From: Mastigocoleus testarum BC008
Lineage (GTDB): Bacteria > Cyanobacteriota > Cyanobacteriia > Cyanobacteriales > Nostocaceae
Reading direction: 5' to 3'
DNA: 64,000 bases
NCBI RefSeq assembly: GCF_001456025.1
Contig: NZ_LMTZ01000094.1
Span: forward strand, 62,001 to 126,000
Within the stretch, counting starts at the first letter, position 1. Every line of letters begins with the position of its first letter. The notes beneath the pieces were generated by a model. That model made no database searches and was not told the origin of the DNA. It was given only the letters and a program-made list of their open reading frames with translations. Below are positions 609 through 42,593 of the stretch, one piece after another. Both the position numbers and the translations under genes were made by a program.

Positions 609-3600
609 TTGGGTATAAACGCTGTGTTCGACCTTCAGTCTATCCGGCAATTTTATCAACTCCACAAGGAATTCATTGATAATCTAATCTCCGGTGCTTT
701 GCCTGCGATCACACCCTTGATTATTGGTTTTATATGGTGGTTGAAATGGCGACACCGCCAGCGTCGTATTCCTCCGGATATTTTTGCATTTGAAGTAATT
801 AAACCCAAAAGTCCAGATCTGAAAAAGCGAATTTTGGGTGGTGATGATAAAGATGTTTTAGCCGACCGTAACATCCCCTATCAACAAAGGGTAGCAAATT
901 GCAACGTTCGTAGAGAATTACAGCAGCAGCTAGAAGAGCATCGCTGGGTATTAATTTTAGGACGTACCGGAATCGGTAAAACACGGGAAGCAATAGAGTT
1001 AGCAAATAATCTTAACCAATTAGGTTGGACGGTACTTTACCTTAAGCCAGGTGAATGGCTAGATATTCCGGCGCGGATGCCCACAGAAATTGGCACTGAT
1101 CGCAAGTTACTGTTTATACTTGACGATCTAAACCGGAAAATGCATCGCAGTCACCAAGAAATATCCCCAGAAGCAGAGAAAAGTCCGGTAGAAAAGTTTT
1201 ATGTACCGTTACAAGAACGATTGCTACAAGCTTTGAAAAAATATGAGAGTTTCTGCGGTCAAGAAGAAGTAAGGGTAATTGCTACAGCACGAAATGAGAA
1301 ACAGTCACAGTTTAAGGAAGAAGCAAGTCCTTGGGAACAACTGCAATGGGATAAATACCCTAAACTCTGGCAACGGTTTAAAAGTTATGAATTACCAATT
1401 CCAGAAGATGATGCCATTATTGGGGTGCTTGCAGATGTAGTTAACAATATAGACATTTCTGCAAAACCTGAACAGTATCCTGAATTAGCAAAGCGTAACG
1501 ATGCCACTTTCAGAAATGTAGTGGAAAATTTGCGTAGGTTAAAAAGCGATCGTTTACCTTTGAATCCAAACACTTACCGAGAAAGCTTAGGAAAGACTTG
1601 GGAAAAACGTTATCAGGAAGCAGTGAGGAGGTACCCCGCTAGTCACCATATTTATGATGCGGTGGACTTGATACAGCAATTTGGCATTTTACTAGAACGT
1701 TTTACCGTAGGACCGACTGCACAAATGTTAGCGGGTGGAAATTTTTGGCAGAGGTTGCGGCGTTTGTGGCGAATTCGCCAAGCAATTAATTTTTTGGTTG
1801 ATGCTGAACGTATTCTCACACCCCGTGAGGGACAAATTGAAGGAAAGGGTAAGCAAATAGAAGTAGGGGAATATATTCAGTTTTTACTGAATTTTTTATT
1901 GAAACTAACAAAAAGACCATCAGTTTCAGGGGACATACTAATTTCGTTATATAGTTTTGGTAGTAAACTTTCGGAATCAAATCGCCACAAAGAAGCCCTA
2001 ATTTGTTTCAATAGACTGATAGATTTTAGACCAGAACTAGATTTTATTTGGGTAGATCGAGGAAATGAGTTGGCTGAACTGAAACGATATGAAGAAGCTA
2101 TTGTTTCATTCGAAAAAGCCATAGAAATTAAACCTGATTACTATTTCGCTTGGTTGAAGCGGGGTTATACGCTGTTTTGGCTAGAAAAATACGAAGATGC
2201 CGTTGTTTCCTATGAAAAAGCTTTAGAAATAGATCCTGAGGGAATTTTAGCCTGGTTTCCCAGGGGTGTAGCATTAGCACAATTAGGGCAATATGCAGAT
2301 GCTATTGCTTCGTTTGATAAAACCATAGAAATCAAATCCGACTACTTAATCTGGTATTTTCGGGGTTCGGCATTGTTAAATCTGGGAAAATATCATCAAG
2401 CAGTTGTTTCATTTGACGAAGCCTTAAAATTACAATCAGAGGACAAAAATACTTGGTATTTACGGGGTAAGGCACTGTTAAATTTAGAACATTGTCATGA
2501 CGCAATTATTTCATTTGACGAAGTCCTAAAATTGCAATCAGATCACGCAAGTGCTTGGTATTTTCGGGGTAAGGCACTGTTAAATTTAGAACATTATCAT
2601 GACGCAATTATCTCATTTGACGAAGTTCTAAAATTACAGTCAGACGACGAAAATACTTGGTGTTTGAGGAGTTTGGCACTATTTAATTTAGAAAGATATG
2701 ATGAAGCGGTTGCTTCTTTTGACAAAACCTTAGAAATCAAATCCAGCTTCTCAAGCTGGTATTTTCGGGGTTCAGCACTGTTACATTTGAGAAGATATCA
2801 TCAAGCGGTTGCTTCATTTGACGAAGCCCTAAAATTAAAGTTAGATGACGGAAATACCTGGTATTCCCGGAGTTTGGCACTATTTAATTTAGAAAGATAT
2901 GATGAAGCTGTTGCTTCCTTCGATAAAACCATAGAAATAAAATCCGACTTCTCAAGCTGGTATTTTCGGGGTTCAGCGCTGTTAAGTTTGGAAAAATACG
3001 AGCAAGCGGTTGCTTCATTTGACGAAGCCCTAAAATTACAACCTAGTGAAGAAGGCGCTTGGTACTTGCGCGGTAAAGCACTATCAAATTTAGAACAATA
3101 TGACAAAGCATTTGCATCCTTTAATAAAGCCATAGAAATTAACCCTGATAATGCAGAAACCTGGTATTTGCAAGGGGTAACATTGGGTATGTTGGGGAGA
3201 TTAGATGAAGCGATCGCATCTTTCGATAAAGTCATAGAAATAAACCCTGATAATACACAAATCTGGTTCTTTCGAGGTGTATTCCTGTACGACTTAGCAA
3301 AATATGAACAAGCAATTGCTTCCTTTGACAAAGCCATAGAAACCAGTCCTGATAATGGGGAAGTTTGGCATTTACGGGGTAAAGCATTTAGTCGTTTGGA
3401 GAAATACAAAGACGCTATCGCCTCGTTAGACAAAACCATAGAAATTGAACCCAATAACCCAGAATTCTGGTATGACCGAAGTGCGACCTTGGGTAACTTA
3501 GCAAGATATGGTGAAGCGATCGCATCTTGCGATCGAGCATTAGAAATACAGCCCGATAATGCGCAATTCTGGTACTACCAAGGTGCGTTGCTATACGGTT

Positions 3601-6183: not shown

Positions 6184-6570
6184 TCAACGTACTACCGGGC
6201 TAGCATGGTGATGCACCAAATACCACTTACCACCGAGTAGTTCAAATACATTGGTTGCTAGTGATTTAGCTTCCATTTTTTTTCCATTTACTACCTGCAT
6301 AACATTCTCAGTGAGAACAATATAAGCAATGTTTTCTCGAACTTCTGTTGAATGAATATCCGTATTTATCTCAATATATGCAGTATTTTGAAATATTTTC
6401 TCCCAAGATTTACTAATATCCTTCCATCCTCGCAACACATTCCAACCTGGATGAACACAAATACTCCCAGTACCCTGGGACCAAACCGAACTCATGGTCT
6501 TAATATCTTTTTTCTCAAATGCTCGATAAAAAGCTGTATTTGTAGCGAACAATTCAGAATGGTCGGTCAT
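6184..6570 (-). CDS. NTF2-like (SnoaL/DUF4440-type) protein
   Basis: This is a small 128-residue protein with the NTF2-like cone fold pattern: an N-terminal helix (NTAFYRAFEKKDIKTMSSVW), the CVHPGW motif, a helix in GWKDISKSWEKIF, then four strands ending with LVHHHASPVV. Cyanobacterial relatives with CVHPGW...HHHASP are common and are usually annotated nuclear transport factor 2 family. No enzymatic role can be stated. The gene lies 84 bp upstream of sigZ on the same strand, so it might be read as the first gene of the sigZ-arsI group, although the spacing leaves room for a separate promoter. Confidence 0.82.
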   Translation of the reverse strand: MTDHSELFATNTAFYRAFEKKDIKTMSSVWSQGTGSICVHPGWNVLRGWKDISKSWEKIFQNTAYIEINTDIHSTEVRENIAYIVLTENVMQVVNGKKMEAKSLATNVFELLGGKWYLVHHHASPVVR

Positions 6571-6650
6571 AATTTTTGATGGGGATTGGGGATAGCACTG
6601 CGTGCCGCCGCAAGCGGCATATGGGGACTGGGTAATAATTATCCAAAACT

Positions 6651-6697
6651 GATAACTGTTAACTGTTAACTGTTAACTGTTAACTGTTAACTGATAA
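6651..6697. repeat. heptanucleotide tandem array (GTTAACT)n
   Basis: About six head-to-tail copies of the 7-mer GTTAACT, bounded by GATAACT variants, abut the stop codon of the downstream hybrid kinase. It is a typical short tandemly repeated repetitive (STRR) sequence of heterocystous cyanobacteria. The unit is also a near-palindrome. Confidence 0.85.
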
Positions 6698-8587
6698 CTA
6701 ACCCATTTTCACGTTACCAATAGTTTGCAACAATTGTTTAGCGGTGTAAGGTTTGGCAAGAAAAGCTTGGACGCCGATATCAGTTACAGCATTGAGTTTT
6801 TCGGTTGTAGCCAGTCCGCTAACAGCAATGATTTTGACCGTGGGATTAATTTTTTGCAAAGTACGAATAGTTGTAATTCCATCCATTGACGGCATAATCA
6901 TATCAGTAAGAACAATTGAAATTTCATCGCGATGTTCTGCATACAACGCAATAGCTTCAATTCCATCTTTAGCAGTAATGGCTTTATAGTTGTGAGTTTC
7001 CAAAGATGTTTTGGTCACATTACGAATTGAATCTTCATCATCAACAACTAAAATTAACTCGCCATTACCATGGGGAAATTCCAAGTCTGCTTCTTCCTGA
7101 TACTCCTTAATTTGCTGCGCTGGTAAATATATTTTAAATTGACTCCCGCGACCAACCTCACTAAATACTTGGATAAAACCTCCATGGCTTTTGACTATAC
7201 CAAGTACAGTAGAAAGTCCAAGCCCCGTACCTTTACCCAATTCTTTTGTAGTGAAAAATGGTTCAAATATGCGATCGAGAATTTCTGAACGAATACCTAC
7301 TCCAGTATCAGTAATATTAATTACTATATAGCTGCCTTCGCGGGCATCAAGATCCATGTGAGCATAGTTTTCATCAACAACCATATTTTCGGCTGCGATA
7401 CTCAATTTACCACCATTGGGCATGGCATCGCGGGCATTAACACACAAGTTCATTAGTACTTGATGTAGTTGGGTTGTATCGCCAGAAACCGTCCACAAAT
7501 TTTGTGGAATGTAAGTGGAAACTTCTATTGATTTGGGAAAAGTTTCTCTGACCACTTGTTTAATTTCCCAAATTAAATGTCTGATTTGTAAGATTCTGCG
7601 ATCGCCTTCAATTCCCCGAGTAAATGAAAGCACTTGTTTAACTAAGTTAGCACCGCGTTTGGAATTATTAATTAGTATTGGTAATAGCTTTTTACTGCGT
7701 TCGTCTTTAAGTTGTAATTCTAGTAACTGAGCAGTCATTAAAATCGGCGCTAGAACGTTATTTAAATCGTGAGCAATACCGCTAGCCAAGGTGCCAATAC
7801 TTTCCAGTCTTTGAGCACGTAAAAATTGTGATTCTAGTAACTTTTTCTGGGTGACATCGGTATTTACAACTAGGATAGTTTGTGATTCATGGTCGAATTC
7901 TCTGACTAAAGTCCAACGACTTTCAACAATAAGATTTTTACCAGATTTTGTTGTTTGGTGTAATTCCCCTTCCCAAGCACCTTTTTCAATTAAAGTATTT
8001 TGGGCTGCTTCGATTTGCTGTAAATTTTTTTCATGCCACAACTGCGATATCGTTTTCCCAATTGCTTTTTCTCTCGAATATCCATAAAGATACTCTGCTG
8101 CTTTGTTCCAAAATAAAATTTTACGTTCCAGATCGCAAACAAAAATTGCATCGGTTGCTATATCTAGCAATGCTGCTTGGGCGCGGATTTTTTGCTCAGT
8201 TTGCTTGCGTTCGATCGCATAACGTATAGAACGTTCTAATAAGGGTGCATTTATCTGGCTTTTTTCCAAGTAATCTGCCGCACCGGCTTTCATCGCTTCA
8301 ATATCTATTTCTCGATCGCCTTTACCTGTAAGTAAAATAATAGGAGCACTACAACCCATCTCTTGGGCTTCGCGCAATAGGTCTAGCCCGTTGCTAGTAC
8401 CCAAGCGATAATCTATAAGGTAAACATCAAATTCGTTATTTTTTATAGCAGTTTTAGCAGCTTGATAATTGTCAACCCATTCCACAGAACAATAATCTGA
8501 CTGGAATTCGCCAAACCAGTCACGAATTAAAATGTAATCGTCCTCATCATCATCTAATAATAGAACTTTGATCGGGGTGTTGTTCAT
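6698..8587 (-). CDS. hybrid histidine kinase, REC-PAS-HisKA-HATPase-REC
   Basis: This is a 629-residue soluble sensor kinase. Domains in order: an N-terminal receiver (acidic cluster DDDEDD near 12-17, phospho-acceptor D59 in LIDYRLG, K109); a PAS domain at about 135-245; HisKA with H273 in ASGIAHDLNNVLAP; a HATPase_c domain with N-box NLCVNARDAM and glycine boxes GVGI and GTGLGLS; and a C-terminal receiver with DD pair and acceptor D in VLTDMIMPSMDG at about 560. There is no transmembrane segment, so the input is probably phosphotransfer to the first receiver and/or the PAS ligand. It is read 19 bp after the response regulator at 8607-9053, surely as one operon. The target is unknown. Confidence 0.93.
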   Translation of the reverse strand: MNNTPIKVLLLDDDEDDYILIRDWFGEFQSDYCSVEWVDNYQAAKTAIKNNEFDVYLIDYRLGTSNGLDLLREAQEMGCSAPIILLTGKGDREIDIEAMKAGAADYLEKSQINAPLLERSIRYAIERKQTEQKIRAQAALLDIATDAIFVCDLERKILFWNKAAEYLYGYSREKAIGKTISQLWHEKNLQQIEAAQNTLIEKGAWEGELHQTTKSGKNLIVESRWTLVREFDHESQTILVVNTDVTQKKLLESQFLRAQRLESIGTLASGIAHDLNNVLAPILMTAQLLELQLKDERSKKLLPILINNSKRGANLVKQVLSFTRGIEGDRRILQIRHLIWEIKQVVRETFPKSIEVSTYIPQNLWTVSGDTTQLHQVLMNLCVNARDAMPNGGKLSIAAENMVVDENYAHMDLDAREGSYIVINITDTGVGIRSEILDRIFEPFFTTKELGKGTGLGLSTVLGIVKSHGGFIQVFSEVGRGSQFKIYLPAQQIKEYQEEADLEFPHGNGELILVVDDEDSIRNVTKTSLETHNYKAITAKDGIEAIALYAEHRDEISIVLTDMIMPSMDGITTIRTLQKINPTVKIIAVSGLATTEKLNAVTDIGVQAFLAKPYTAKQLLQTIGNVKMG

Positions 8588-8606
8588 ATTGTTCGTCTCT
8601 CACTGC

Positions 8607-9053
8607 TTATAGTGGCAGTTTTACAGTTTCAAACCAGTACTTCCCTATAGTTTTCATTACTTCGACTAAAGAAGAAAAAGTCATCGGCTTGATAATAAAC
8701 GAATTAGCACCCAAATCATAACTCCGATGGATATCTTCTTCAGCTTTTGACGTGGTTAGAACAATAATGGGGATTGAGCGTAACTGGGAATCTGCTTTGA
8801 TTTCTCGCAATGCTTCTCGACCATCTTTTTTCGGCATATTTAAATCCAGAAAAATTAAATCTGGACGAGGTGCAAGTTTTTTATCAGTATATTGACCCCG
8901 ATTATACAAATAGTCCATTAGCTCTTCACCATCTTTCACTATACGTGCTGCATTTGCTAGTCGGCTTTCTGCTAATGCTTCTTGCGTCAACATACAATCA
9001 TCGTCATCATCATCAGCGATCAAAATTATGAAGCTTGTTTGCCGACCCTTCAC
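8607..9053 (-). CDS. single-domain response regulator, Rcp1-like
   Basis: This is a stand-alone receiver of 148 residues with the acidic run DDDDDD at about 14-19, phospho-acceptor D70 in LIFLDLNMPKKDG, the conserved T/K positions in VLTTSKAEEDI and FIIKPM, and no output domain. It belongs to the Rcp1-type regulators that act with bacteriophytochrome or other kinases in cyanobacteria. The start is taken as GTG at 9053 because an AAGGAG ribosome-binding site lies about 10 bases upstream; a nearer ATG at 9060 is in another frame. It is first gene of an operon with the hybrid kinase, 19 bp downstream, and is probably the partner of that kinase's first receiver. Confidence 0.9.
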   Translation of the reverse strand: MKGRQTSFIILIADDDDDDCMLTQEALAESRLANAARIVKDGEELMDYLYNRGQYTDKKLAPRPDLIFLDLNMPKKDGREALREIKADSQLRSIPIIVLTTSKAEEDIHRSYDLGANSFIIKPMTFSSLVEVMKTIGKYWFETVKLPL

Positions 9054-9817: not shown

Positions 9818-10651
9818 ATGTTAAATAGAAAGAATTATTTGCGACAGTTTACCGTACCCACGAGCGTTTGTGCGGTTGCACTCTCCGCTTTACTTATCGG
9901 AGCTTGTAATAATACTAACCCCGAAGCTAACGCGCCGAATGAAACAACTGCATCTGAGCAAACTAATACTACGGCGTCTGAGGTTGTCAATAAAACCGAT
10001 GAGTTGATAGGCAAAACTGTAACCATTCGTAGCGAACCTGTAAAGAAAATTTCCCCAGCCACATTTACAGTTTCTGACAACCAGTTTTTTAGCGGCGAAA
10101 CAATATTAGTCGTCAATGCTTCTGGAGAGACTGCAACTCTCCCAGAAGATACTGAACTTCAGATTACCGGCGAGGTTGGGAAATTTGTAGCTGCTGATAT
10201 TGAAAGAAAATATAACCTGAAGTTAGATCCGCAACTTTACGTGGACTACGAAAGTAAGCCAGCAATAATTGCCCAGTCAATCGCACAAGCTCCTAAACCA
10301 GGTGAGATTACCAATAATCCAAGTCAGTATTATAACAAAATACTTGCTGTCCCCGGCGAAATCGAGGATGTGAAAAGTGATAATACTTTTACTTTAGATG
10401 AGGATCGCTTGATTGGTGGTAGCGACTTGCTGGTTCTAGTTGCCGATTCGAAGAAAGCTACAGTTAAAGATGGGGAAACAGTAGTCGCGACAGGGGTTTT
10501 GCGTCCGTTTATAGTTGCAGAGTTAGAGAAAGAGTACGAATTTACTTGGGATGCTGGTTTAAAGCAAAAATTAGAAGCAGAATTTAGAGATAAACCAGTA
10601 CTAGTTGCGACATCCGTATACCCTTCAGCTCTACCCGAGGAGAAAAAATAA
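9818..10651 (+). CDS. cyanobacterial lipoprotein with two related beta-rich domains
   Basis: This is a 277-residue exported protein. A type II signal peptide ends in the lipobox LIGAC, with the lipidated cysteine about 30 residues from the start. A Thr/Ser/Asn-rich linker follows. The body has two similar halves, each running from K-x-V..(I/V)x...F-T-(V/L)x(D/E)..L and ending with K-(K/R)-(E/K)-Y followed by ..KP.(L/I)(I/V)A.S. These look like duplicated OB-fold-like modules with acidic surfaces. The start is ATG 9818 because GAAGAGGAG (9801-9809) sits at proper distance; a TTG at 9815 is ignored. A terminator-like hairpin follows. Its function is unknown. Confidence 0.78.
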   Translation: MLNRKNYLRQFTVPTSVCAVALSALLIGACNNTNPEANAPNETTASEQTNTTASEVVNKTDELIGKTVTIRSEPVKKISPATFTVSDNQFFSGETILVVNASGETATLPEDTELQITGEVGKFVAADIERKYNLKLDPQLYVDYESKPAIIAQSIAQAPKPGEITNNPSQYYNKILAVPGEIEDVKSDNTFTLDEDRLIGGSDLLVLVADSKKATVKDGETVVATGVLRPFIVAELEKEYEFTWDAGLKQKLEAEFRDKPVLVATSVYPSALPEEKK

Positions 10652-10702
10652 GCGAAGTAAATACTATTTGTCCATTGGCTAAGTCTGTTCTTTAAAACTT
10701 AT

Positions 10703-10723
10703 GGGTTCCCACTAGAGGAACCC
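10703..10723 (+). terminator. hairpin after the lipoprotein gene
   Basis: GGGTTCC (10703-10709) pairs perfectly with GGAACCC (10717-10723) around a 7-base loop and is followed by TATTTAGTT. It is a probable intrinsic terminator, though the T-run is imperfect. The rest of the spacer up to 11000 is AT-rich and without visible features. Confidence 0.6.
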
Positions 10724-11000
10724 TATTTAGTTAGCTGTTATGTTTATACCCATTTAGCAAACGATCTTAAATTTAAAGAAAAAATTACTAACGAAACAAT
10801 TAATAGGAACATTAAAAATTATTAGATAACTGGCTTTAAAAATAAGCTCAAATCCTCGATTACGACGGTTAATTAATTACCGTATTTACCAACATATTTA
10901 TGTTATTTCAGCTACTGATGGGTAACTAAAATTATTTAACCCAAGCTGGAGTTATATAAATTACCTTCAAATTTTGAATAAATTTAAATCAGGAGAGAAA

Positions 11001-11564
11001 ATGTCAATCCCTTTGAAATCAGCTTCTCCCCCCAGCAAACAAAAATTTGCCGGTGTATTTCGCATGCTCGGTCGAATTAGTTTTTGGGCTCATATACTTC
11101 TTGGTGGTGCTGCTGGAATTATTATTTTGCTAGTGATGTTGAGTCGTAATTTCAGCAACGCAAACAATTCTTATATTGGGTTCGGAATATTTCTGGCAAT
11201 TTGTAGTATTTTGGCTGTCGGTTTTCGGATTTATTGGGCTTATCGCTATACACGTTTGGCTAGACTTCTGGAGTCGTCCGATAGGAGTGTTCATCCTCAA
11301 AAAGCAGAGGTGATCGAAGTTCTCAGAATTGGTTTATACGTCAGTCTAGCGGGACTCTTTATTGCTTTTTTAGCTACCGAACAAACTGTAATTGCTGTTT
11401 TGGCTAAATCTCTGGCTCGACCTGAAGGAGTCACAATTTACGAAGCAAGAATTGGTGTCAGACCGATAGATTTATTTCTTATACTTGCAAACGTCAATAT
11501 TATGGGAGCTCATTTTCTTGGAAGCGTTAACTCTTTAGGATTACTTGATTGGTTAGATTCTTAA
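11001..11564 (+). CDS. DUF3611 family membrane protein
   Basis: This is a protein of about 187 residues with four predicted membrane spans (about 32-52, 62-82, 113-133 and 156-176) and a short basic N-terminus ending in the RMLGRISFWAHILLG stretch. The pattern fits the DUF3611 family, found in cyanobacteria and plastids. The start is ATG 11001, with AGGAGAG about 6 bases upstream; the frame is open to a TTG at 10974 but that lies before the ribosome-binding site. It is a single gene with 153 bp before cobO. The function is not known; a thylakoid or inner-envelope location is inferred from the family's distribution. Confidence 0.75.
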   Translation: MSIPLKSASPPSKQKFAGVFRMLGRISFWAHILLGGAAGIIILLVMLSRNFSNANNSYIGFGIFLAICSILAVGFRIYWAYRYTRLARLLESSDRSVHPQKAEVIEVLRIGLYVSLAGLFIAFLATEQTVIAVLAKSLARPEGVTIYEARIGVRPIDLFLILANVNIMGAHFLGSVNSLGLLDWLDS

Positions 11565-11717
11565 ACTATTCAAACAGAGTATAAAGACTTTAGCAACCGC
11601 CATTAGCAGGAAACTGGATAGCACAAAAATGTTAAACTGTAGAGCAATTTACTTGAGTTAGATTGTAATTTTTACTGCATTTTCCTACTAAGAAACGGTT
11701 ACTTTTGTTTGAATATT

Positions 11718-12377
11718 ATGAAAACAGATGAAAATTTAGCAACAACCAACGACGCATCTATTAGAGAAGATTTATCTTTAACAAAAGAGCAGTATCGTAA
11801 AAAGATGCAACGTCGCAAAGAAGTACAAGACCAGCGTATGGCGCAAGCTGTACCTGAAAAAGGATTAATTATTGTTAATACCGGCAACGGAAAAGGCAAA
11901 ACTACAGCAGCTTTAGGAATGATACTACGTTCCCTAGGCCATGGTTACAAAGTAGCCATTATTCAATTTATTAAAGGGGGTTGGGAGCCAGCGGAGAAGA
12001 AAGTATTCGGTCCTTGGGAAGAACAAATTCGATTCCACGCGATGGGAGAAGGTTTTACTTGGGAAACTCAAGATCGCGACCGCGACATCGAAAAAGCCCT
12101 TGCTGCTTGGCAAAAAGCAAGGGAATATATCCGCAATCCGGAATTCAAATTGGTGTTGTTGGACGAAATTAATATTGCTATTAAACTTGGTTATTTGAGA
12201 GTTGATGAAATTTTAACGGGATTAGAAGAAAAGCCAGATAACAGTCATGTAATTTTAACCGGTAGGGGAGCCCCACAAGCCTTAATCGAACGCGCCGATT
12301 TAGTAACGGAAATGAATTTAATTAAACACCCATTCCGAGACCAGGGCGTAAAAGCCCAACCTGGGATTGAATATTAG
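11718..12377 (+). CDS. cobO: cob(I)yrinic acid a,c-diamide adenosyltransferase
   Basis: This is a CobA/CobO/BtuR-type ATP:corrinoid adenosyltransferase of 219 residues, which transfers the adenosyl group from ATP to reduced corrinoid in coenzyme B12 synthesis or salvage. The Walker A-like loop NTGNGKGKTTAALG is near residues 53-66. Further family motifs are QFIKGGW, GEGFTWETQDRDRD, LVLLDEIN, VILTGRGAP and the C-terminal KHPF.DQGVKAQPGIEY. The basic KKMQRRKEVQDQRM helix before the P-loop is usual for the family. The start is ATG 11718; an in-frame TTG lies 9 bases upstream. It stands alone; other cob genes are not in the window. Confidence 0.95.
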   Translation: MKTDENLATTNDASIREDLSLTKEQYRKKMQRRKEVQDQRMAQAVPEKGLIIVNTGNGKGKTTAALGMILRSLGHGYKVAIIQFIKGGWEPAEKKVFGPWEEQIRFHAMGEGFTWETQDRDRDIEKALAAWQKAREYIRNPEFKLVLLDEINIAIKLGYLRVDEILTGLEEKPDNSHVILTGRGAPQALIERADLVTEMNLIKHPFRDQGVKAQPGIEY

Positions 12378-28464: not shown

Positions 28465-29664
28465 ATGTTAGCTAGTAAAGTAGAAAAAACTTTAAGAAAT
28501 TATCGAAAGCAAGCTGCTAAATTTACTAACTCCGACCCCAAACATTTATTTATATTTTTAGAAATTTTCCAGCGCGAAGGTGGTATTCAATCTTATGTTA
28601 AAGATATATTCAGGGCTTACACTAGTGTAAATACGGGGTATCATGCAGATGTATTTTTACTGCGAGATGATTCTACATGTCCCAATCCTTATAAATCTGA
28701 AAATTTAAAATTTTATTATTTTAACAGTCGATATCCTCAAATCGGAAGATTAAAAATCACTACGGCTTTACTTCAATATCTATTAAAACAACGACCTCAA
28801 CATGTTTTTTGCGGTCATATTAACTTAGCAGTATTAGTTCAAAGCCTTTGCCAGCCATTGAGTATTCCCTATACAGTTTTGACCTATGGTAAAGAAGTAT
28901 GGGAACCCCTCCCTAAACGATCGCAATCTGCTTTAGCAAGCGCTGCAAAAATTTGGACAATTAGTCGCTATAGTCGTGACAACATCTGTAGTGCAAATGA
29001 TATCGATCCGTCAAAAATACAAATGGTCCCTTGCGCAATTGATCCAGAAAAATTTACGCCCGGTGTCAAGGATCCAAAACTACTTGATAAATATGGTTTG
29101 CGCAATAACAAAGTATTAACTACTGTTGCGCGACTATGGTCTGGAGATATTTACAAAGGTGTGGATGTCACCATTAGAGCTTTACCCCGGATATTAAAAG
29201 TATTTCCAGAAGTAAAATATTTAGTCATTGGTCGTGGTGACGATCAAGAAAGACTAGCTAAGCTAGCTCAAGATTTGGGTGTTGCAGATCGAGTGGTATT
29301 TGCAGGTTTTGTTCCCACAGAAGAATTAATAGAGCATTATCGACTCGCAGATGCTTATGTTATGCCTTCCCAAGAAGGTTTTGGTATTGTTTATCTGGAA
29401 GCAATGGCTTGTGGAATACCGGTAATTTCTGGCGATGCCGATGGTTCTGCCGATCCATTGCAAAATGGTAGACTGGGATGGCAAGTCCCCCATCGCGACC
29501 CTAATGCAGTTGCTGCAGCTTGTATAGAACTTTTACAAGGAAAGGATCGACGCTCTCAAGGTCAATGGTTACGGGAAGAAGCGATCGCAAATTTTGGTAT
29601 TACTGCTTTTCAAAAGCATCTGCAATTGCAGCTTTTCCCTAAATCTTCAGTCGAAGTTAAGTAA
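28465..29664 (+). CDS. glycosyltransferase family 4 protein
   Basis: This is a 399-residue GT-B glycosyltransferase. The N-terminal domain begins at about residue 27 with HLFIFLEIFQREGGIQSYV, the usual acceptor-side GG loop. The C-terminal domain contains LTTVARLW near 210, KGVDVTIRALPRIL, the VVFAGFVPTEEL region and the nucleotide-sugar motif EGFGIVYLEAMACGIPV (E-x7-E) near 300-318. It transfers a sugar to a lipid- or polysaccharide-type acceptor at the cytoplasmic face of the membrane. No other polysaccharide genes are adjacent, so its pathway is unclear. Confidence 0.92.
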   Translation: MLASKVEKTLRNYRKQAAKFTNSDPKHLFIFLEIFQREGGIQSYVKDIFRAYTSVNTGYHADVFLLRDDSTCPNPYKSENLKFYYFNSRYPQIGRLKITTALLQYLLKQRPQHVFCGHINLAVLVQSLCQPLSIPYTVLTYGKEVWEPLPKRSQSALASAAKIWTISRYSRDNICSANDIDPSKIQMVPCAIDPEKFTPGVKDPKLLDKYGLRNNKVLTTVARLWSGDIYKGVDVTIRALPRILKVFPEVKYLVIGRGDDQERLAKLAQDLGVADRVVFAGFVPTEELIEHYRLADAYVMPSQEGFGIVYLEAMACGIPVISGDADGSADPLQNGRLGWQVPHRDPNAVAAACIELLQGKDRRSQGQWLREEAIANFGITAFQKHLQLQLFPKSSVEVK

Positions 29665-31396: not shown

Positions 31397-31429
31397 CACA
31401 TCAAGATATTATTGAAAGGGAATCGTTTG

Positions 31430-33592
31430 ATGGCAACTCCAGCTACAAGGAGAACTGGTAATCGTTCAAGTCACGGAATTGAGCAGGACAGTATAGGTAC
31501 TTTCCCCCTAAAAACAAGACGTTTTTTGGCTTGGACGGCAGAAATTACCATAGTAGTTGTCAGTGGGTTAATACCTTTTGGTATTGGTGCGTACATCAAT
31601 GCTAAAAGTGATATGAATCGAGTACCACTCAATCCTCCAGTGACGATCGCGCGCAGAGAAGTAGCACGTCCATTGGCTCTTCCTGTGAGTCTGGGTGTTA
31701 CTAATGTCGCTTGGGGGACAAATGTTTTATGGACCTTAAGTTTAATCGCGCCTGTGGTTGTTTCTGGTTGGCAATTATATTTATTAGCCAAAACTGGTAG
31801 CACTACTCCGAAGCGCTGGTTTGCTGTCAAGGTCGTCAAACAAGATGGTGGCATCCCAGGTTTTCAAGCTGTATTTATGCGAGAATGTATTGGTAAATGG
31901 TGTTTACCGGTATCTGTTGCTTACTTATTGTGGCGAAACAGCTTGCTTTTCCCGAACCTAGGTGTTTTTACAATTTTGGTAAGTGTAATGATACTGGGGG
32001 AAAGTAGTGGCTTTCCTTGGCGCAAACAACGACAACGGGCACTACATGACAACATTGCAGGAACATATACTATAGACGCGCATCAATCCTTCACACCTGG
32101 GCTGCTAGATGATGACACTACTACTAAGTCTCAGTTGTTGGAAGAAGATGAAGAAGCAGCAATCGAGTCAATTGTGATTACACCAGAACCGAGAAAAAAA
32201 ATTAGCCTCTGGCGACGGATGCGGCAAAATCCAAGCTTGACCTTATTTTTAGTGTCACTTATAAGTATATCTGCCGTATTAACAACACTTATATTAACTC
32301 AAGTTTATATCCAAGCTCAAAAAAATCGTCGCGCACATCTCAATGTTAATGCACGCCAGTTAGATATATTAAGAGAAAAATTAAACCCAGAATCAAATAC
32401 TTCTTTAAGAGAACGCCAGCAGGCAATTTTAGCGCTGGGAAGTCTTAATGACCAACAAGCAACTAAATATTTAGTTAACTTACTGATTGAAGAAAACGAA
32501 CCTATATTACTAAATAATATTAAACGTTCTCTGGAATTAATTGGACCGAAAGCCATACCCCACTTATTGCGCCAAAATCGATCTCTTGTTAAAGAATTAG
32601 ATTCAGCAAATGGCGATAATTCGAACGTTCAAGAATCGCCAACAGTTAGCTTACACAATAACCAACAGGCTATTAATAGAATTTTAGCCGTTTATAACGG
32701 TCAAACAAATGGAATCGATTTAAATCGGGTTAATTTAGGTCAAAGTGGTTCGGGGAAAACTTCCTTCTTTAATCTTGTTTTAGATCGAGCCGATCTATGG
32801 GGAATCAACTTTAAATATGCAAATTTAAATCAAGCTAGTTTCCGAGGTAGTCGTTTTCGCGGTCCTGGGGAAGATCGTCGTTGGAATACTTTTGATGATT
32901 GGATAGCTAATTTTAGCGAAGCTGAATTGACAAAAGCAGATTTTAGTAATGCTAACCTCAGTCGCGTATTAATGAATCGTGCGGATCTTAGTCGTGCGAA
33001 TCTCCAAGGGGCTAATTTATCTAGTGCTCGTTTGGTAGAAGCAAACCTGAGCAGTGCAAGATTACCAGGAGCAGACTTAAGACGTGCAGTGCTAGAAAAT
33101 GCCAGTCTTACTGGGGCGGATTTAGGAGATGCAAAACTCAACGATGCGGATTTATTTTCAGCGCGTTTGGGTAGAGTAATTGCAACGGGAGCAAACTTTT
33201 CCTTCGCCAATTTAACAAAAACAGATTGGCAAGGGGCAGATTTATCATCCACAGATTTCCAGGGAGCAAATCTCAGTAATGCTAATCTAAGCGCAACTCG
33301 TTTAACTACTGCAAGATTACGAAACGTTAATTTACAAAATGCCAATTTGCGCAATGCTAATTTGCAGAATGCGGACTTGCGAGGAGCAAATCTAGTAGGA
33401 GCAGATTTTCAAGGAGCTATTTTGTACCCCCAGAGGCAAAATCCATCTGATGATTTTGTTCAAACACCGGTTACGGGTTCTGAATCAGCAGTTGTTAAGG
33501 GAGTTGACTTTAGTCAAGTGAAAAATAGTTTGAGTTCCAGACAATTGGCTTATATTTGTACCCAAGGTGGTCTTCATCCCCGGTGTCCGTAG
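31430..33592 (+). CDS. RDD-domain / HEAT / pentapeptide-repeat membrane protein
   Basis: This is a protein of about 720 residues. The N-terminal half has an RDD-type membrane domain (RRFLAWTAEI in place of the usual Arg-Asp-Asp start, then spans near 30-50, 100-125 and 165-190). Another span at about 265-288 follows a basic stretch. Residues about 315-380 look HEAT-like (QAILALGSL...IKRSLELIG). From about 425 to 670 there are some 35 pentapeptide repeats A(D/N)Lxx forming a right-handed quadrilateral helix. The start is ATG 31430 with AAAGGGA before it; the TTG at 31412 is rejected. The stop codon lies inside a dispersed repeat at 33583-33603. The function is unknown; a membrane protein carrying a pentapeptide rod is inference. 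Confidence 0.8.
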   Translation: MATPATRRTGNRSSHGIEQDSIGTFPLKTRRFLAWTAEITIVVVSGLIPFGIGAYINAKSDMNRVPLNPPVTIARREVARPLALPVSLGVTNVAWGTNVLWTLSLIAPVVVSGWQLYLLAKTGSTTPKRWFAVKVVKQDGGIPGFQAVFMRECIGKWCLPVSVAYLLWRNSLLFPNLGVFTILVSVMILGESSGFPWRKQRQRALHDNIAGTYTIDAHQSFTPGLLDDDTTTKSQLLEEDEEAAIESIVITPEPRKKISLWRRMRQNPSLTLFLVSLISISAVLTTLILTQVYIQAQKNRRAHLNVNARQLDILREKLNPESNTSLRERQQAILALGSLNDQQATKYLVNLLIEENEPILLNNIKRSLELIGPKAIPHLLRQNRSLVKELDSANGDNSNVQESPTVSLHNNQQAINRILAVYNGQTNGIDLNRVNLGQSGSGKTSFFNLVLDRADLWGINFKYANLNQASFRGSRFRGPGEDRRWNTFDDWIANFSEAELTKADFSNANLSRVLMNRADLSRANLQGANLSSARLVEANLSSARLPGADLRRAVLENASLTGADLGDAKLNDADLFSARLGRVIATGANFSFANLTKTDWQGADLSSTDFQGANLSNANLSATRLTTARLRNVNLQNANLRNANLQNADLRGANLVGADFQGAILYPQRQNPSDDFVQTPVTGSESAVVKGVDFSQVKNSLSSRQLAYICTQGGLHPRCP

Positions 33593-33603: not shown

Positions 33604-33666
33604 AAATTTAAAAGTCAAAAGTTATATCATGTCCGCTTAATTACTTACGAAAAAATATGTTTGTTT

Positions 33667-33718
33667 GTAGTAGCGCTTTAGCGTCATAGTAAATATATTG
33701 GCGCTAAAGCGCTACTAC
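33667..33718. repeat. 17-bp perfect inverted repeat (hairpin)
   Basis: GTAGTAGCGCTTTAGCG (33667-33683) and CGCTAAAGCGCTACTAC (33702-33718) form a perfect 17-bp stem with an 18-base AT-rich loop, between two convergent genes. It is a dispersed cyanobacterial repeat type that may double as a transcription stop. Confidence 0.75.
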
Positions 33719-33763
33719 GAACCTTATCGCAAGTGTTTTACCGGACACGATATTAAACGCAGT

Positions 33764-33859: not shown

Positions 33860-36157
33860 TCACTTTACATGAATTATGGGAGTTAAATTTTCCGGGATTC
33901 CGGCTATGGCGATCGCATTACATCCGAGTTTGTAAGCAAAATCAATTGATTCTCCAGCGCCTAAGGCGCTATAGAAACCCACTGCAAATTCAATTGCGGC
34001 TTGATCTCCAACAGCTTGATTCATTCCAATTACGTAGGGAATATGTTGGGAAATTGCTGTTGCTTGTACTTCGGAATAACAAGCATTAAGAATCACGCAT
34101 TCAACTTTCTGGTTAGATTTTGGGCTAAATAACTCGAATAATCCTGCCAGTGCTGCTGTAGATACGTACTGTAATTGTCCAGTTTGGTTTTGAAATGCTA
34201 AACCATCATCGCCACCACCATGACCGCAAAAATGAACAATATGTGGTTTAAAGTCTAATAAAGCTTGGGAAATATCTCGAACTCCCACCGCCCAACGTTG
34301 TTGTAAATCAAATTTTTCTCGCTTTCTTGCTCTTTGCAAGCCAGCATCAATTTCTCGTACTTCTTCATCTAATCGTAAATGTGAGGTAGTTTTGGGATTG
34401 GCAGCTAATACTAAAATTGTTTTGATATCAGTAGCAGTAGAATGAGGATGACCTAATGCAGTTCCTATCATATTTTCAAAACTAGCAAGCTGTTTTTGTT
34501 GTAGTCCAATTTCTTTATCTTTTAGTTCAATTTCTTTATTTTTTTCTGATAGCTGATTTAAATAATGTTGTTTCTGCTCTGCTGGAGACAAAGTTTTAAG
34601 ATAATTATAAGTTTCAAAATATTGCTGGTTTAATTCAGATTTATCTGCTTCCGGTGCGACTTTGGCGCGGATTAAAAATTTGTCTGCTCCCCGTTTTTCC
34701 ATTGCTACGAGTTCTAAATCTGCATCGGGGTTCTTTTCTGCTAATTCTTTAAAAGAAATAGCTATCGCTCTGGGGTCAACACCTTGATTATGATAAAGGT
34801 CGAGGGTGTCAACTATTGGTTTAATAAAATCCCCAAATTCTCCATCCCCAAATACTTCTTCCCTGTTATCAGGTTTGCGCCAAGGTTCCGGGTTATCATC
34901 GGTGGGGAGACGCATATAAACGTACTCACACCTGACACCACGAAAATTTGTGTGAGTAGTAATATTCCAATCCTCAATATACGCCCCGGTAAGTGTAGCG
35001 CCTGTAAAATCCGTTGCGTTTAATTGGGTTTGGACTAGCTTTGCTCTCGATAAATCGCTATCCTGCAAATTAGCTTTACTTAAATCAGCACCGATCAAAC
35101 TAACATCTACTAAATCTGCTCCTTGCAGGTTAATTCCTCGCAAGTTTTGACGCTCGAAATTTTTCTGACGTCCATTTCCCGTAATTAGTACCTGACGGAG
35201 TTGAGGATACTTCAAATAAGTGTTACCTGGACGCGCATAGTCAAGTTTTTTAACATTTCTTAAACAAGTACGAGTCAAAGTAGCATTTCTAAAATCAGTA
35301 TTTTTTAGTGTAGCGGAAGTAAAATTAGCATTAGTTAAATCGGCATTGCGAAAACTTGTACCCCCAAACGCCGCAAAAGCAATAGCAATATTACGGATAA
35401 AAGCATACTTTTCATCTCCTTTCATTGCTCGCCAACCAATGTAAGCACTAACTAGGGCTCCGGCGATAGCGACGGCTCCGGCTCCGGTGAGGGCGACGGC
35501 TCCGGTGAGGGCGAGGGTGAGGGCTCCGGTAAGGGCTCCGGTGAGGGCGACGGCGACGGCGATGACTCCGGCGACGGCGAGGGCTCCGGTGAGGGCGACG
35601 GCGACGGCGATGGCTCCGGCGACGGCGAGAGCGAGGGCGACGGCGAGGGCGACAGCTCCGGTTCCTACTCCGGCTCCGGCTCCGGTGAGGGCTCCCGCTC
35701 CGGCTCCGGTGAGGGCGACGGCGAGGGCTCCGGCGAGGGCGACGGCGAGGGCGACGGTTCCCGCTCCGGCTCCGGCTCCGGTGAGGGCTCCCGCTCCGAA
35801 AGCAAATTGTATTCCTCGGCGAACTGCAGCGACAAAGAAGATTATTGTTATTATTATCGTAAGCCAGCTAATTACTTGATTCTCTAAACTTTTATTATTA
35901 AACATGAATGATGCCAAGAAACCATTAAAGGCAAATAAAAATCCCGACAGACCTGCGAGCAATAACGAAACAAGCACCAAGAAAATCGCTTGACGTTTTT
36001 GTAACCCAGCCTTAGCGTGGCTAAAGTTTGCACCTTTTAAAACGGCATTGGTAAAGTTTGCGCCGCGAATATCTGCATGGCTAAAATCAGCGTTCGTCAG
36101 GTTTTGTCCTTTAAATGATTTTCCCCGTAGATTTCGACCAGAGTAATCTAAAGACAT
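33860..36157 (-). CDS. pentapeptide-membrane-CHAT protein (caspase-like)
   Basis: This is a 765-residue protein of unusual build: a short pentapeptide block (1-50), hydrophobic spans at about 57-80 and 93-112, then about 120 residues of Ala/Gly/Val/Leu/Thr low complexity (ALTGAGAG, ALAVALA motifs; 118-238). A second pentapeptide block lies at about 262-400, an alpha/beta segment with coiled tail at about 420-560, and a C-terminal CHAT domain at about 575-765. The CHAT dyad is intact: H646 in HFCGHGGG and C693 in VILNACYSE. CHAT domains are caspase-like proteases found in conflict and programmed-death systems. The low-complexity part may form extra membrane helices. Its partner or substrate is unknown. 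Confidence 0.82.
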   Translation of the reverse strand: MSLDYSGRNLRGKSFKGQNLTNADFSHADIRGANFTNAVLKGANFSHAKAGLQKRQAIFLVLVSLLLAGLSGFLFAFNGFLASFMFNNKSLENQVISWLTIIITIIFFVAAVRRGIQFAFGAGALTGAGAGAGTVALAVALAGALAVALTGAGAGALTGAGAGVGTGAVALAVALALAVAGAIAVAVALTGALAVAGVIAVAVALTGALTGALTLALTGAVALTGAGAVAIAGALVSAYIGWRAMKGDEKYAFIRNIAIAFAAFGGTSFRNADLTNANFTSATLKNTDFRNATLTRTCLRNVKKLDYARPGNTYLKYPQLRQVLITGNGRQKNFERQNLRGINLQGADLVDVSLIGADLSKANLQDSDLSRAKLVQTQLNATDFTGATLTGAYIEDWNITTHTNFRGVRCEYVYMRLPTDDNPEPWRKPDNREEVFGDGEFGDFIKPIVDTLDLYHNQGVDPRAIAISFKELAEKNPDADLELVAMEKRGADKFLIRAKVAPEADKSELNQQYFETYNYLKTLSPAEQKQHYLNQLSEKNKEIELKDKEIGLQQKQLASFENMIGTALGHPHSTATDIKTILVLAANPKTTSHLRLDEEVREIDAGLQRARKREKFDLQQRWAVGVRDISQALLDFKPHIVHFCGHGGGDDGLAFQNQTGQLQYVSTAALAGLFELFSPKSNQKVECVILNACYSEVQATAISQHIPYVIGMNQAVGDQAAIEFAVGFYSALGAGESIDFAYKLGCNAIAIAGIPENLTPIIHVK
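35445..35806. repeat. GC-rich hexanucleotide coding microsatellite
   Basis: This tract of about 360 bp is built on the plus strand from GGCTCC, GGTGAG, GGCGAC, GGCGAG and GGCGAT hexamers. It is far richer in GC than its surroundings. On the minus strand it encodes the Ala/Gly/Val/Leu repeats of the CHAT protein; the antisense frame is also open but is a by-product. Lengths in multiples of six keep the frame, so copy number could vary. Confidence 0.9.
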
Positions 36158-38493: not shown

Positions 38494-38831
38494 TAATAGT
38501 TGTCGATTGTCGGTTGAAGTTGAATTTAATAGGTGACTGTTGACTATTAGTTGGTGGTTTTTTCCAAAATTATTTTTTCTTTGGTGCGGTACAAATTCTT
38601 GAACTAACTGATTTAATTCACTCAAAATCAGCAGAATTCAATAGTTTGTATTTTTTCCATTAAAAAATAGACTTATGACATTGAAACGAAAGTTGTTATA
38701 CTTTGGAAAACTTGTTAAACTCAACCGACAATTTAAGTCCACAAAAAGATGACATTAGCCATCAAATATATAGTGGACTTTAGACTAAACTATTTACTTG
38801 TGTTGTATTAGATTTGTTGGCTAACTGTTTT
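38494..38831. other. 338-bp spacer before clpS
   Basis: AT-rich spacer with no gene seen. The clpS reading frame is open up to TTG codons at 38814 and 38817 but ATG 38832 is the more likely start. Confidence 0.4.
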
Positions 38832-39158
38832 ATGGTGAAAAGACTTTCTGCAGTGGTTTATGGAATGGGGACGGCTCCAACGATTGCTCCTGAAAGATCT
38901 GGTCAAGTCACCCAGAAGCCTTACCCCAATTATAAGGTTATTGTTTTGAATGATGACTTCAATACATTTGACCATGTGGCTCAATGTTTAATGAAGTATA
39001 TTCCGGCTATGACTAGCGATCGGGCTTGGGAACTGACTAATCAGGTGCATTATGAAGGACAAGCAATTGTATGGATAGGACCGCAGGAACCGGCGGAACT
39101 TTATCATCAGCAATTACGCAGAGCTGGTTTAACTATGGCACCTTTGGAAGCCGCTTAG
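38832..39158 (+). CDS. clpS: ATP-dependent Clp protease adaptor ClpS
   Basis: This is a 108-residue N-degron adaptor. The core YPNYKVIVLNDDFNTFDHVAQCLMKYIP is classical: Asn-Asp-Asp just after the first strand binds the N-terminal residue of the substrate. A later VHYEGQAIVW segment fits strands and the docking helix. ClpS hands proteins with destabilising N-termini to ClpCP/ClpAP. The N-terminal extension before the core is about 37 residues, longer than in minimal ClpS, so a start further downstream (second ATG) is possible. It is followed 6 bp later by the DUF2103 gene and surely co-transcribed. Confidence 0.93.
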   Translation: MVKRLSAVVYGMGTAPTIAPERSGQVTQKPYPNYKVIVLNDDFNTFDHVAQCLMKYIPAMTSDRAWELTNQVHYEGQAIVWIGPQEPAELYHQQLRRAGLTMAPLEAA

Positions 39159-41243: not shown

Positions 41244-42593
41244 ATGACTCAATATATGTCTGCTATTAAAACAGATGGTAGCACAAAAAGAGTCAGAGAT
41301 TTATTATTTGTTATTGGGTCGACATTTGTTGCAGTTTTTGTTGCTATTTATTTAATTTTATCTTATCAAGATAATCTGTACTCGGGAATAAGTATTAAAT
41401 ATCTACTCCACACATTAGCGGCTACTACAATTATTTTTGGAGGTATTATAGTTGGTATTAGTGGTTTCTATATTTTATTGATATTGCTGTCTGAAGATAA
41501 AAATATTTTAGGAAAATCCACTCTTTCTAAATTTAATATAAATAAAAATATTGAATTTGAGTGTAAATGTGTTGAGTCTGACTTAGAAAAAAATATTTCT
41601 CGTTTCTCTAGTGCAATTGAACATTTGGGTCACGAACAAATAGAAACGAGATTAGGAGCTATTTATGCATTAGAAAAAATTACTCAAGATTCTGATGATG
41701 ATACTTGGACAATATTAGAAACTCTTGCAGCTTTTATCAGAGAAAATGCTCCCATAATAGAGTTAGATGAAGTTATTGAGGAGTTTTCATTTTCTAGTAT
41801 ACCTACAGATATTCAAGCTGCTTTAACTGTAATTGGACGGATTAATTTAGAAACAAATCTAGAAAATCACAGAATAGATTTGCGCAACACCGATTTAAGA
41901 GGTGCAGACCTTACAGAAGCTAGTTTGCAATACATAGATTTTACAGGGGCTAATCTGCAAGGAGTAATGTTTTATGGAGCAAATCTTTCCGGTGCGCATC
42001 TCACAGCTGCGAACCTTTCAGAAGCAGTTTTGTACGAAACTAATTTGCAAGAAGTCAGTCTCTATGAAGCTAATTTAACAGGAGCGATCGCTAGAAAAGC
42101 AAATTTACAGCAAGCTATACTTCATAAGGCTAACTTAGAAAAGGCTTTACTTTACGAAGCTAATTTGCAGGACGCAACACTTTACGAAGCAAACTTACAA
42201 GAAGCTATGCTTTACGAAGCCAATTTAAGAGAAGCTAACTTGGAAGATACCAATCTTTATCGAGCGAATTTGATTGGTGCGAATTTGCGATCGTGTAAGT
42301 TGATTGGAGCTTATTTAGAAGGAACAATACTTAGTACTGCTGATATTACTGAAGCTAATCTTTTTGAAGCAAATCTACTTGAAGCCAATTTTTGTGAAGC
42401 TAATCTCAGCTATGCAAATCTGGTTGGGACTAATTTAAAAAAAGCAAAACTTGACGAAGCAAATCTTTCTGGTACGGACTTAACGAGAGCTGAAAATATA
42501 GAACAAGCACAAATAGAATCAGCATTTGGAAATAGCGATACTATTCTCCCAGAATATTTAGAAAGACCAAATTGGGAAGAAAAAAATGAATAA
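41244..42593 (+). CDS. pentapeptide-repeat membrane protein
   Basis: This is a 449-residue protein with two N-terminal membrane spans (about 18-40 and 52-78), a helical cytoplasmic region at about 105-190 with the widespread ETRLGAIYALEKI...WTILETLAAFIRE motif, then about 45 pentapeptide repeats from about residue 210 to 420 (A(N/D)L(x)E pattern, many with YEANLQEA). In cyanobacteria such proteins are numerous and mostly without known role; the LGAIYALE...AFIRE region is shared by many and is probably an adaptor. The repeats are followed directly by the heptanucleotide arrays. Confidence 0.85.
   Translation: MTQYMSAIKTDGSTKRVRDLLFVIGSTFVAVFVAIYLILSYQDNLYSGISIKYLLHTLAATTIIFGGIIVGISGFYILLILLSEDKNILGKSTLSKFNINKNIEFECKCVESDLEKNISRFSSAIEHLGHEQIETRLGAIYALEKITQDSDDDTWTILETLAAFIRENAPIIELDEVIEEFSFSSIPTDIQAALTVIGRINLETNLENHRIDLRNTDLRGADLTEASLQYIDFTGANLQGVMFYGANLSGAHLTAANLSEAVLYETNLQEVSLYEANLTGAIARKANLQQAILHKANLEKALLYEANLQDATLYEANLQEAMLYEANLREANLEDTNLYRANLIGANLRSCKLIGAYLEGTILSTADITEANLFEANLLEANFCEANLSYANLVGTNLKKAKLDEANLSGTDLTRAENIEQAQIESAFGNSDTILPEYLERPNWEEKNE

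Follow-up and report, generated by a model that had tools for sequence, protein, structure and literature searches.

The window, the whole 64,000-nucleotide stretch of Mastigocoleus testarum BC008 DNA analyzed here, carries on its minus strand a gene of 765 amino acids with an ATG start (33860..36157), whose extent is given by the open reading frame and by full-length relatives. The encoded chain runs pentapeptide-membrane-pentapeptide-alpha/beta-coiled coil-CHAT, and all of its parts named below lie on the minus strand. Pentapeptide repeats were detected in five stretches (Pfam PF00805, 109.9 bits against a cut-off of 20.2). Pfam places the N-terminal block at residues 5 to 50 (36008..36145). 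A Kyte-Doolittle scan identified two hydrophobic helices behind it, at residues about 55 to 84 (35906..35995) and about 91 to 120 (35798..35887), both predicted to insert into the membrane. The adjoining Ala/Gly/Leu/Val low-complexity stretch (residues 119 to 240; 35438..35803) comprises 122 residues, almost wholly A, G, L, V, T, and I, with zero charged residues; the GC content of its DNA is 0.75, versus 0.39 in the remainder of the gene. A GC-rich tandem array of 6-, 12-, 18-, and 24-bp units codes for the Ala/Gly stretch (35456..35798, assigned to no strand). The second pentapeptide region, recognized by Pfam and family matches, spans residues about 258 to 400 (34958..35386) and is made of two runs. 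It is followed by a conserved alpha/beta module defined by alignments and a structure model (residues 405 to 545; 34523..34945), a helical, coiled-coil-like linker (residues about 525 to 567; 34457..34585) in which structure and motif models revealed no docking motif, and the CHAT domain, delimited by profile matches and a structure model (residues 574 to 765; 33863..34438). The initial annotation had described pentapeptide blocks and a membrane/low-complexity section in one chain with CHAT, an architecture on which Pfam and the hydrophobicity scan agree.

The identified neighbors of the gene encode a pentapeptide-RDD protein, an FAD oxidoreductase, ClpS, a DUF2103 protein, and a glyoxalase-like protein; no NACHT, TIR, or similar gene lies next to it. 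The pentapeptide-RDD gene (31412-33592, plus strand) combines pentapeptides with an RDD membrane domain and a weak HEAT match, stands tail to tail with the fusion gene, and is also kept in the sister genome (L134). The gap at the 3' side of the fusion gene contains a 24-nt inverted repeat with a 12-nt loop (33663-33722). A third pentapeptide protein with a hydrophobic N-terminal part is encoded at 41244-42593 (plus strand), about 5 kb from the start of the fusion gene, and a family 4 glycosyltransferase, which also scores 44 bits against a cut-off of 26 in Pfam GT4-conflict, at 28465-29664 (plus strand). ClpS lies at 38814-39158; the next same-strand gene after a related fusion (L150) also appears ClpS-like by eye, perhaps by chance. 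The genome as a whole contains 107 CHAT matches, many of them as near-identical pairs on separate contigs, and its assembly is flagged as 37.5% contaminated, as if two close strains had been assembled together.

CHAT domain and alpha/beta module

The C-terminal domain matched the CHAT family of Pfam at 32.2 bits (PF12770, cut-off 24); other CHAT proteins of the same genome reach up to 290 bits against the 32 of this one. PADLOC returned matches to 'chat' and 'SAVED_CHAT', the latter spanning just profile positions 290 to 446 of 498 (residues 581 to 738), and the Pfam scan of the protein detected no SAVED domain N-terminal to CHAT. In an AlphaFold model of residues 405 to 765 (mean pLDDT, 84.6), the predicted CHAT domain superimposed on SAVED-CHAT (8tl0) with Z = 23.9 and an rmsd of 2.4 over 189 residues (28% identity); next came DdvA, an anti-sigma factor (Z = 14.9), and caspases (Z of about 13 to 14). 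The GHG and NAC motifs of the two domains line up, which places H646 (codon 34220..34222) as the His of HFCGHG and C693 (codon 34079..34081) as the Cys of LNACYS. Across 118 distinct CHAT domains of the subfamily, the Cys is present in all 118 and the His in 115. Two of the three His exceptions are fused proteins, in which the residue is Tyr (2/32 fused CHAT domains). These are direct fusions (L116/L148 and L144/L216) with GYG instead of GHG; at L148, a second CHAT gene nearby has GHG. The proposal of an intact H646/C693 dyad thus held in both sequence contexts and across the subfamily, and structure prediction over residues 405 to 765 returned the CHAT fold that had been proposed. Profile match, predicted fold, and dyad together mark the window protein as a CHAT-type cysteine protease whose proteolytic activity we infer.

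The alpha/beta module was modeled as beta-alpha-beta-beta-alpha, a generic ferredoxin-like half. Its best structural match was 3udc, an MscS-type domain (Z = 7.7), and a TRADD structure was not among the structural matches listed, an absence that carries no weight. The initial annotation had offered, as a guess, that this segment is an adaptor of the TRADD-N kind. Pfam TRADD-like_N (PF20694) gave no match in the module at E values up to 1; the genome contains three PF20694 matches, all on other contigs. Profile-profile comparison (hhalign) of the module with TRADD-N yielded probabilities of 0.5% and 0.4% from shallow profiles. A tiny-Ser motif in the beta2-beta3 turn of TRADD-N is described as strongly conserved in the excerpted text of Kaur et al. 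(PMC8195603); the corresponding turn of the window protein reads RGADK, and the alignment consensus has no Ser there. The profile tests and the turn motif speak against a TRADD-N identity for the module. Given how generic its predicted ferredoxin-like fold is, the module may still be a remote relative of TRADD-N.

Spread, joining, and splitting of scaffold and CHAT

The module was found fused to CHAT in at least 15 of the 217 genomes of the family (12 over the full span, 3 from residue 46 or 47). An even, order-wide sample of 291 genomes had hinted at a fusion unique to the window genome, the only one to span the query among the matches listed; the family search overturned this. At most seven candidates per genome were scored in the order sample and at most nine in the family search, so these fusion counts are lower bounds, and motif-bearing fusions (see below) appeared mostly as CHAT-only matches in both surveys. 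The search for the same architecture suggested by the initial annotation found full-length relatives, 92% identical in a second Mastigocoleus genome and 43 to 58% identical in other genomes. Among the best 80 of 196 loci, direct-fusion records include by name Mastigocoleus, Calothrix, Brasilonema, Scytonema, Richelia, and Rhizonema, and all 80 of these module-bearing records are cyanobacterial. Their genera are filamentous cyanobacteria. The motif-bearing form is also plasmid borne, in Tolypothrix sp. PCC 7910 and Calothrix sp. NIES-4105. Relative to the sister genome, dN/dS was 0.11 for the second pentapeptide region (7 changes), 0.15 for the alpha/beta module (8 changes), and 0.47 for CHAT (21 changes), the last value indicating no strong constraint.

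The chain pentapeptide-membrane-pentapeptide-alpha/beta (hereafter the scaffold) is common without CHAT, and two scaffolds of the window genome itself (L044 and L047) end in other C termini. Among 85 module-containing open reading frames (loci L154-L235, a set that includes one plasmid gene twice [L155, L178] and a 133-amino-acid fragment), 21 carry CHAT in frame, 6 are followed by a separate CHAT reading frame, and 58 have neither. The membrane part varies in its Ala/Gly character, with A+G reaching at least 0.45 in 10/19 fused and 22/64 unfused scaffolds. A partial match with internal stops (L070 and L087, equal to loci L098 and L099) was rejected as a differently built CHAT protein, the reading frame of which lacks the pentapeptide module. 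Calothrix sp. PCC 7716 (L143; also L166) has a fused copy (6353-8629) and a CHAT-less scaffold (10319-12190) 1.7 kb apart and co-oriented. Elsewhere, three consecutive CHAT genes occupy 865-3755 of L260. Plasmids of Staphylococcus and Agrobacterium encode CHAT proteins about 36 to 41% identical to the window protein, and some of the closest plasmid CHAT domains sit in proteins annotated as TIR, SAVED, AAA-like, or metallophosphoesterase.

Scaffold and CHAT occur together in three states: direct fusions without the motif M1 (19 distinct loci, the window counted), fusions with M1 in the linker (14 distinct loci), and pairs of genes that share a short motif. The M1 consensus is roughly SNFDLQGAQFGGGLVNADTVNAxQIGGNITNY. 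In the two-gene state the motif stands at the scaffold C terminus and at the N or C terminus of CHAT; such loci include the full module at L149, L241, L121, L160, and L190 and pentapeptides alone at L061. The closest to the window protein is a two-gene pair of Richelia UBA3308, sister to the window-type sequences for both scaffold (SH-aLRT, 100; 77% identity) and CHAT (SH-aLRT, 99; 70% identity), with one short motif on both the scaffold C terminus and the CHAT N terminus. The scaffold tree comprised 69 of 99 rows, with the copy of the sister genome standing for that of the window. A single clade of direct fusions was rejected (AU test, p = 8e-52) on 62 of 118 CHAT rows, long branches (including the direct fusions L150 and L151) and most unlabeled rows having been left out. 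The direct fusions do not form one clade, and the parts have therefore been joined, or split, repeatedly. C-terminal modules have also been swapped among scaffolds. The linker of several direct fusions keeps the beginning of the motif-bearing linker (RPSFYAQTYQNQGNT versus RPSFYAQTYNNQGDTM), and that of L152/L158 contains an apparent decayed M1. The retained linker start and the decayed M1 suggest an original docking step that was given up once the parts had been fused, the putative order being docking, fusion, and then motif loss.

Motif-coupled partners in the relatives

To quantify motif sharing, we compared 15 pairs of adjacent genes, chosen by eye after the resemblance had been noticed. 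Within these pairs, which include NTPase pairs, the motifs match and fall into five types, two of which resemble each other. The summed alignment score was 1,547, versus a mean of 898 and a maximum of 1,339 for re-paired genes (0 of 20,000 as high) and an average of 371 for letter-shuffled motifs. The own partner ranked first in just 6/15 rows because pairs of the same type also match one another. Upstream partners are not full scaffolds in two pairs: L061 has pentapeptides without the module, and L244 (1712-2701) is a repeat protein without the pentapeptide module, with a helical tail and a short motif that recurs in the CHAT gene just downstream. We left out repeats of included pairs (L130 and L191 for L241, L157 for L149, L192 for L190, and L222 for L128), a motif-less second CHAT next to L133/L188, and L169, a CHAT gene truncated at a contig end, whose 7-residue N-terminal extension shows no visible motif. 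In other standalone CHAT genes (L246, L248, L250, and more), inspection by eye revealed no motif in common with the upstream neighbor.

At the level of whole genomes, the short form was found in only two places each in G454 and G440, both in adjoining partner genes, and in G359 also in a third place, the tail of a GTPase-like protein. The short-form model was built from three of the five genomes searched, so matches there arise by construction and the absence of further matches alone is informative. At L307 (1246-2952), a GTPase-like protein, which appears to be of the Roc-COR type, has a tail with the coiled coil, KFGGGFAGTGGTQTGGT motif, and helical end of the scaffolds. Searches with the two forms matched the long form in 4/5 genomes and the short form in 3/5. 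Neither form was found in the window genome, and the motif model found no M1 in the linker of the window protein; in the sister genome (G371), a single M1 lies in another fused protein. Any link of the window protein to NLRs is therefore by ancestry only.

A partner starting with M1 lies within 3 kb downstream on the same strand in 10/17 M1 scaffolds versus 0/50 non-M1 scaffolds (Fisher test, 8e-8, a value that is too small because the loci are related). This table covers 67 of 80 loci, the 13 with less than 3 kb downstream having been left out. By class, the ten partners are NACHT (five), AAA_35 (three), and TIR (two), and by scaffold type they adjoin 10/12 unfused and 0/5 fused M1 scaffolds. 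When all 14 fused M1 loci collected were considered, 5 had an M1-starting partner within 1.4 kb and 9 did not; the three of these five partners that were scanned by profile are NACHT proteins. Direct fusions had no M1-starting partner at any of the 17 loci, out of 19, with enough sequence. At L236, an M1-bearing CHAT gene that stands alone precedes a gene for an iSTAND protein, which also has M1. The view of the initial annotation that a CHAT protease normally has a separate activator is thus borne out among the relatives, whose CHAT or scaffold genes adjoin NACHT, AAA-like, iSTAND, or TIR genes. At L300, an M1 CHAT and a P-loop protein (assigned by eye) starting with M1 form a divergent pair (533-1309 and 1486-3120); the latter ends in a long, repetitive hydrophobic tail of the GLIYGLI type, a further case of a membrane part made of repeats.

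Interpretation and relation to known systems

We propose, with a probability of roughly 0.58, that the window protein descends from an NLR-like conflict or cell-death circuit coupled by motifs and is a CHAT effector anchored at the membrane and hard-wired by covalent fusion; its activity, trigger, and toxicity are predictions of this reading. With the genes of some relatives split, carrying matching motifs, and often adjoining immune-type sensor genes, the fusion looks like a hard-wired suicide or immune switch. Its scaffold consists of pentapeptide rods and the alpha/beta-coiled-coil module, which would lie in the cytoplasm, held at the membrane by the two helices and the Ala/Gly stretch, with insertion and sidedness as predicted. 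In the relatives, the short motif matches in sequence on both proteins and would bring CHAT to the scaffold by binding. One frequent form is also found at the N terminus of proteins of the NACHT, AAA-like, iSTAND, or TIR type whose genes adjoin scaffold or CHAT genes. In the lineage of the window, the two genes would have been joined and the motif lost. Clustering or a change in shape of the scaffold may then gather CHAT domains and switch on proteolysis, the outcome most likely being growth arrest or death of an infected or damaged cell in the filament.

A wider form of this proposal, which we hold tentatively and at somewhat less than even odds, is that the scaffold is a general signaling platform of multicellular cyanobacteria, the interchangeable C-terminal motifs of which dock NACHT, AAA-like, or TIR sensors and CHAT effectors. 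Fusion would have replaced docking independently in several lineages, that of the window included, and produced a one-chain, inflammasome-like membrane protease platform.

HetF is a CHAT protein of heterocyst patterning, and the window protein could be of a similar kind, a protease that works at the membrane on a peptide or regulator, serves development or housekeeping in filamentous cyanobacteria, and has no part in defense. According to excerpted literature, CHAT takes its name from HetF; the best 80 named records with the module are all cyanobacterial, the pentapeptide region matches the heterocyst pentapeptide protein HetL (below cut-off), and the neighbors in the window are ordinary chromosomal genes. 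We nevertheless consider this reading unlikely. The family is patchily spread (at least 15/217 genomes), its motif-bearing form has plasmid copies, its parts have been joined or split repeatedly with swaps of C-terminal modules, and its relatives have NACHT, AAA-like, or TIR partners, a pattern better suited to conflict systems than to a conserved gene of development. The window CHAT also scores 32 bits versus up to 290 for others in its genome.

The chain might instead be mainly a membrane scaffold, in which CHAT is a docking or allosteric part that cleaves nothing or only itself. The GYG in place of GHG in two fused domains (L116 and L144), the 58/85 scaffold reading frames neither fused to nor directly followed by CHAT, and the dN/dS of 0.47 in CHAT point this way; the conservation of the Cys in 118/118 and of the His in 115/118 domains argues against it, and we regard it as rather improbable. 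A functionless product of chance read-through or assembly error would account for the repetitive, low-complexity DNA midway through the gene and for an assembly flagged as 37.5% contaminated. The full-length relatives (92% identity in the second Mastigocoleus and 43 to 58% in others) refute an assembly artifact, and the dN/dS of the pentapeptide and alpha/beta parts, well below 1 though based on few changes, also speaks against this explanation, to which we give almost no weight.

If this reading is right, the same switch exists in three natural states, so the function of the motif is directly testable: the fusions identify the partners that go together, and the split genes reveal what the motif does. 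Pentapeptide membrane proteins of many Nostocales-type genomes would thereby be tied to NLR-like sensors and caspase-like effectors.

Searches by title or excerpt in the open-licence literature returned no published treatment of the pentapeptide-CHAT fusion or its scaffold. SAVED-CHAT proteins have a role in type III CRISPR. SAVED-CHAT (8tl0) is the closest solved CHAT by sequence and fold and likewise joins an effector protease in chain to another part; in contrast, the window protein has no SAVED match and is predicted to be anchored by pentapeptides and hydrophobic helices. By profile, predicted fold, and dyad it belongs with the CHAT proteins, presumably as a protease. Craspase TPR-CHAT (PMC9935389, PMC9729208) also fuses a repeat scaffold to CHAT, whereas the window protein has pentapeptides rather than TPR and a hydrophobic membrane part. 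Cyanobacterial metacaspases and orthocaspases combine a caspase-type domain with pentapeptide repeats but belong to peptidase C14 families, and the excerpts mention no alpha/beta module (PMC2853523, PMC8283722). Conflict proteins that combine pentapeptides with caspases are treated in excerpts of Kaur et al. 2021 (PMC8195603); these TRADD-N/EAD proteins resemble the window protein in being multidomain, with pentapeptides, caspase-type domains, and a small alpha+beta middle domain, whereas its own module has neither a TRADD-N profile match nor the tiny-Ser turn.

CHAT effectors with NLR-associated amyloid motifs are already known: bacterial amyloid motifs (BASS) common to NLRs accompany BELL domains and, more rarely, CHAT and TIR domains, as excerpted from PMC7889193. 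Similarly, the relatives of the window protein share a short motif between an NTPase N terminus and an adjoining effector, a likeness in motif sharing to the excerpted BASS pairs (PMC7889193). These relatives form motif-coupled pairs. The window protein, in contrast, is not a member of such a pair: it lacks the motif, and a membrane scaffold with pentapeptides is joined to its effector. It most likely acts as a hard-wired version of the motif-coupled pairs.
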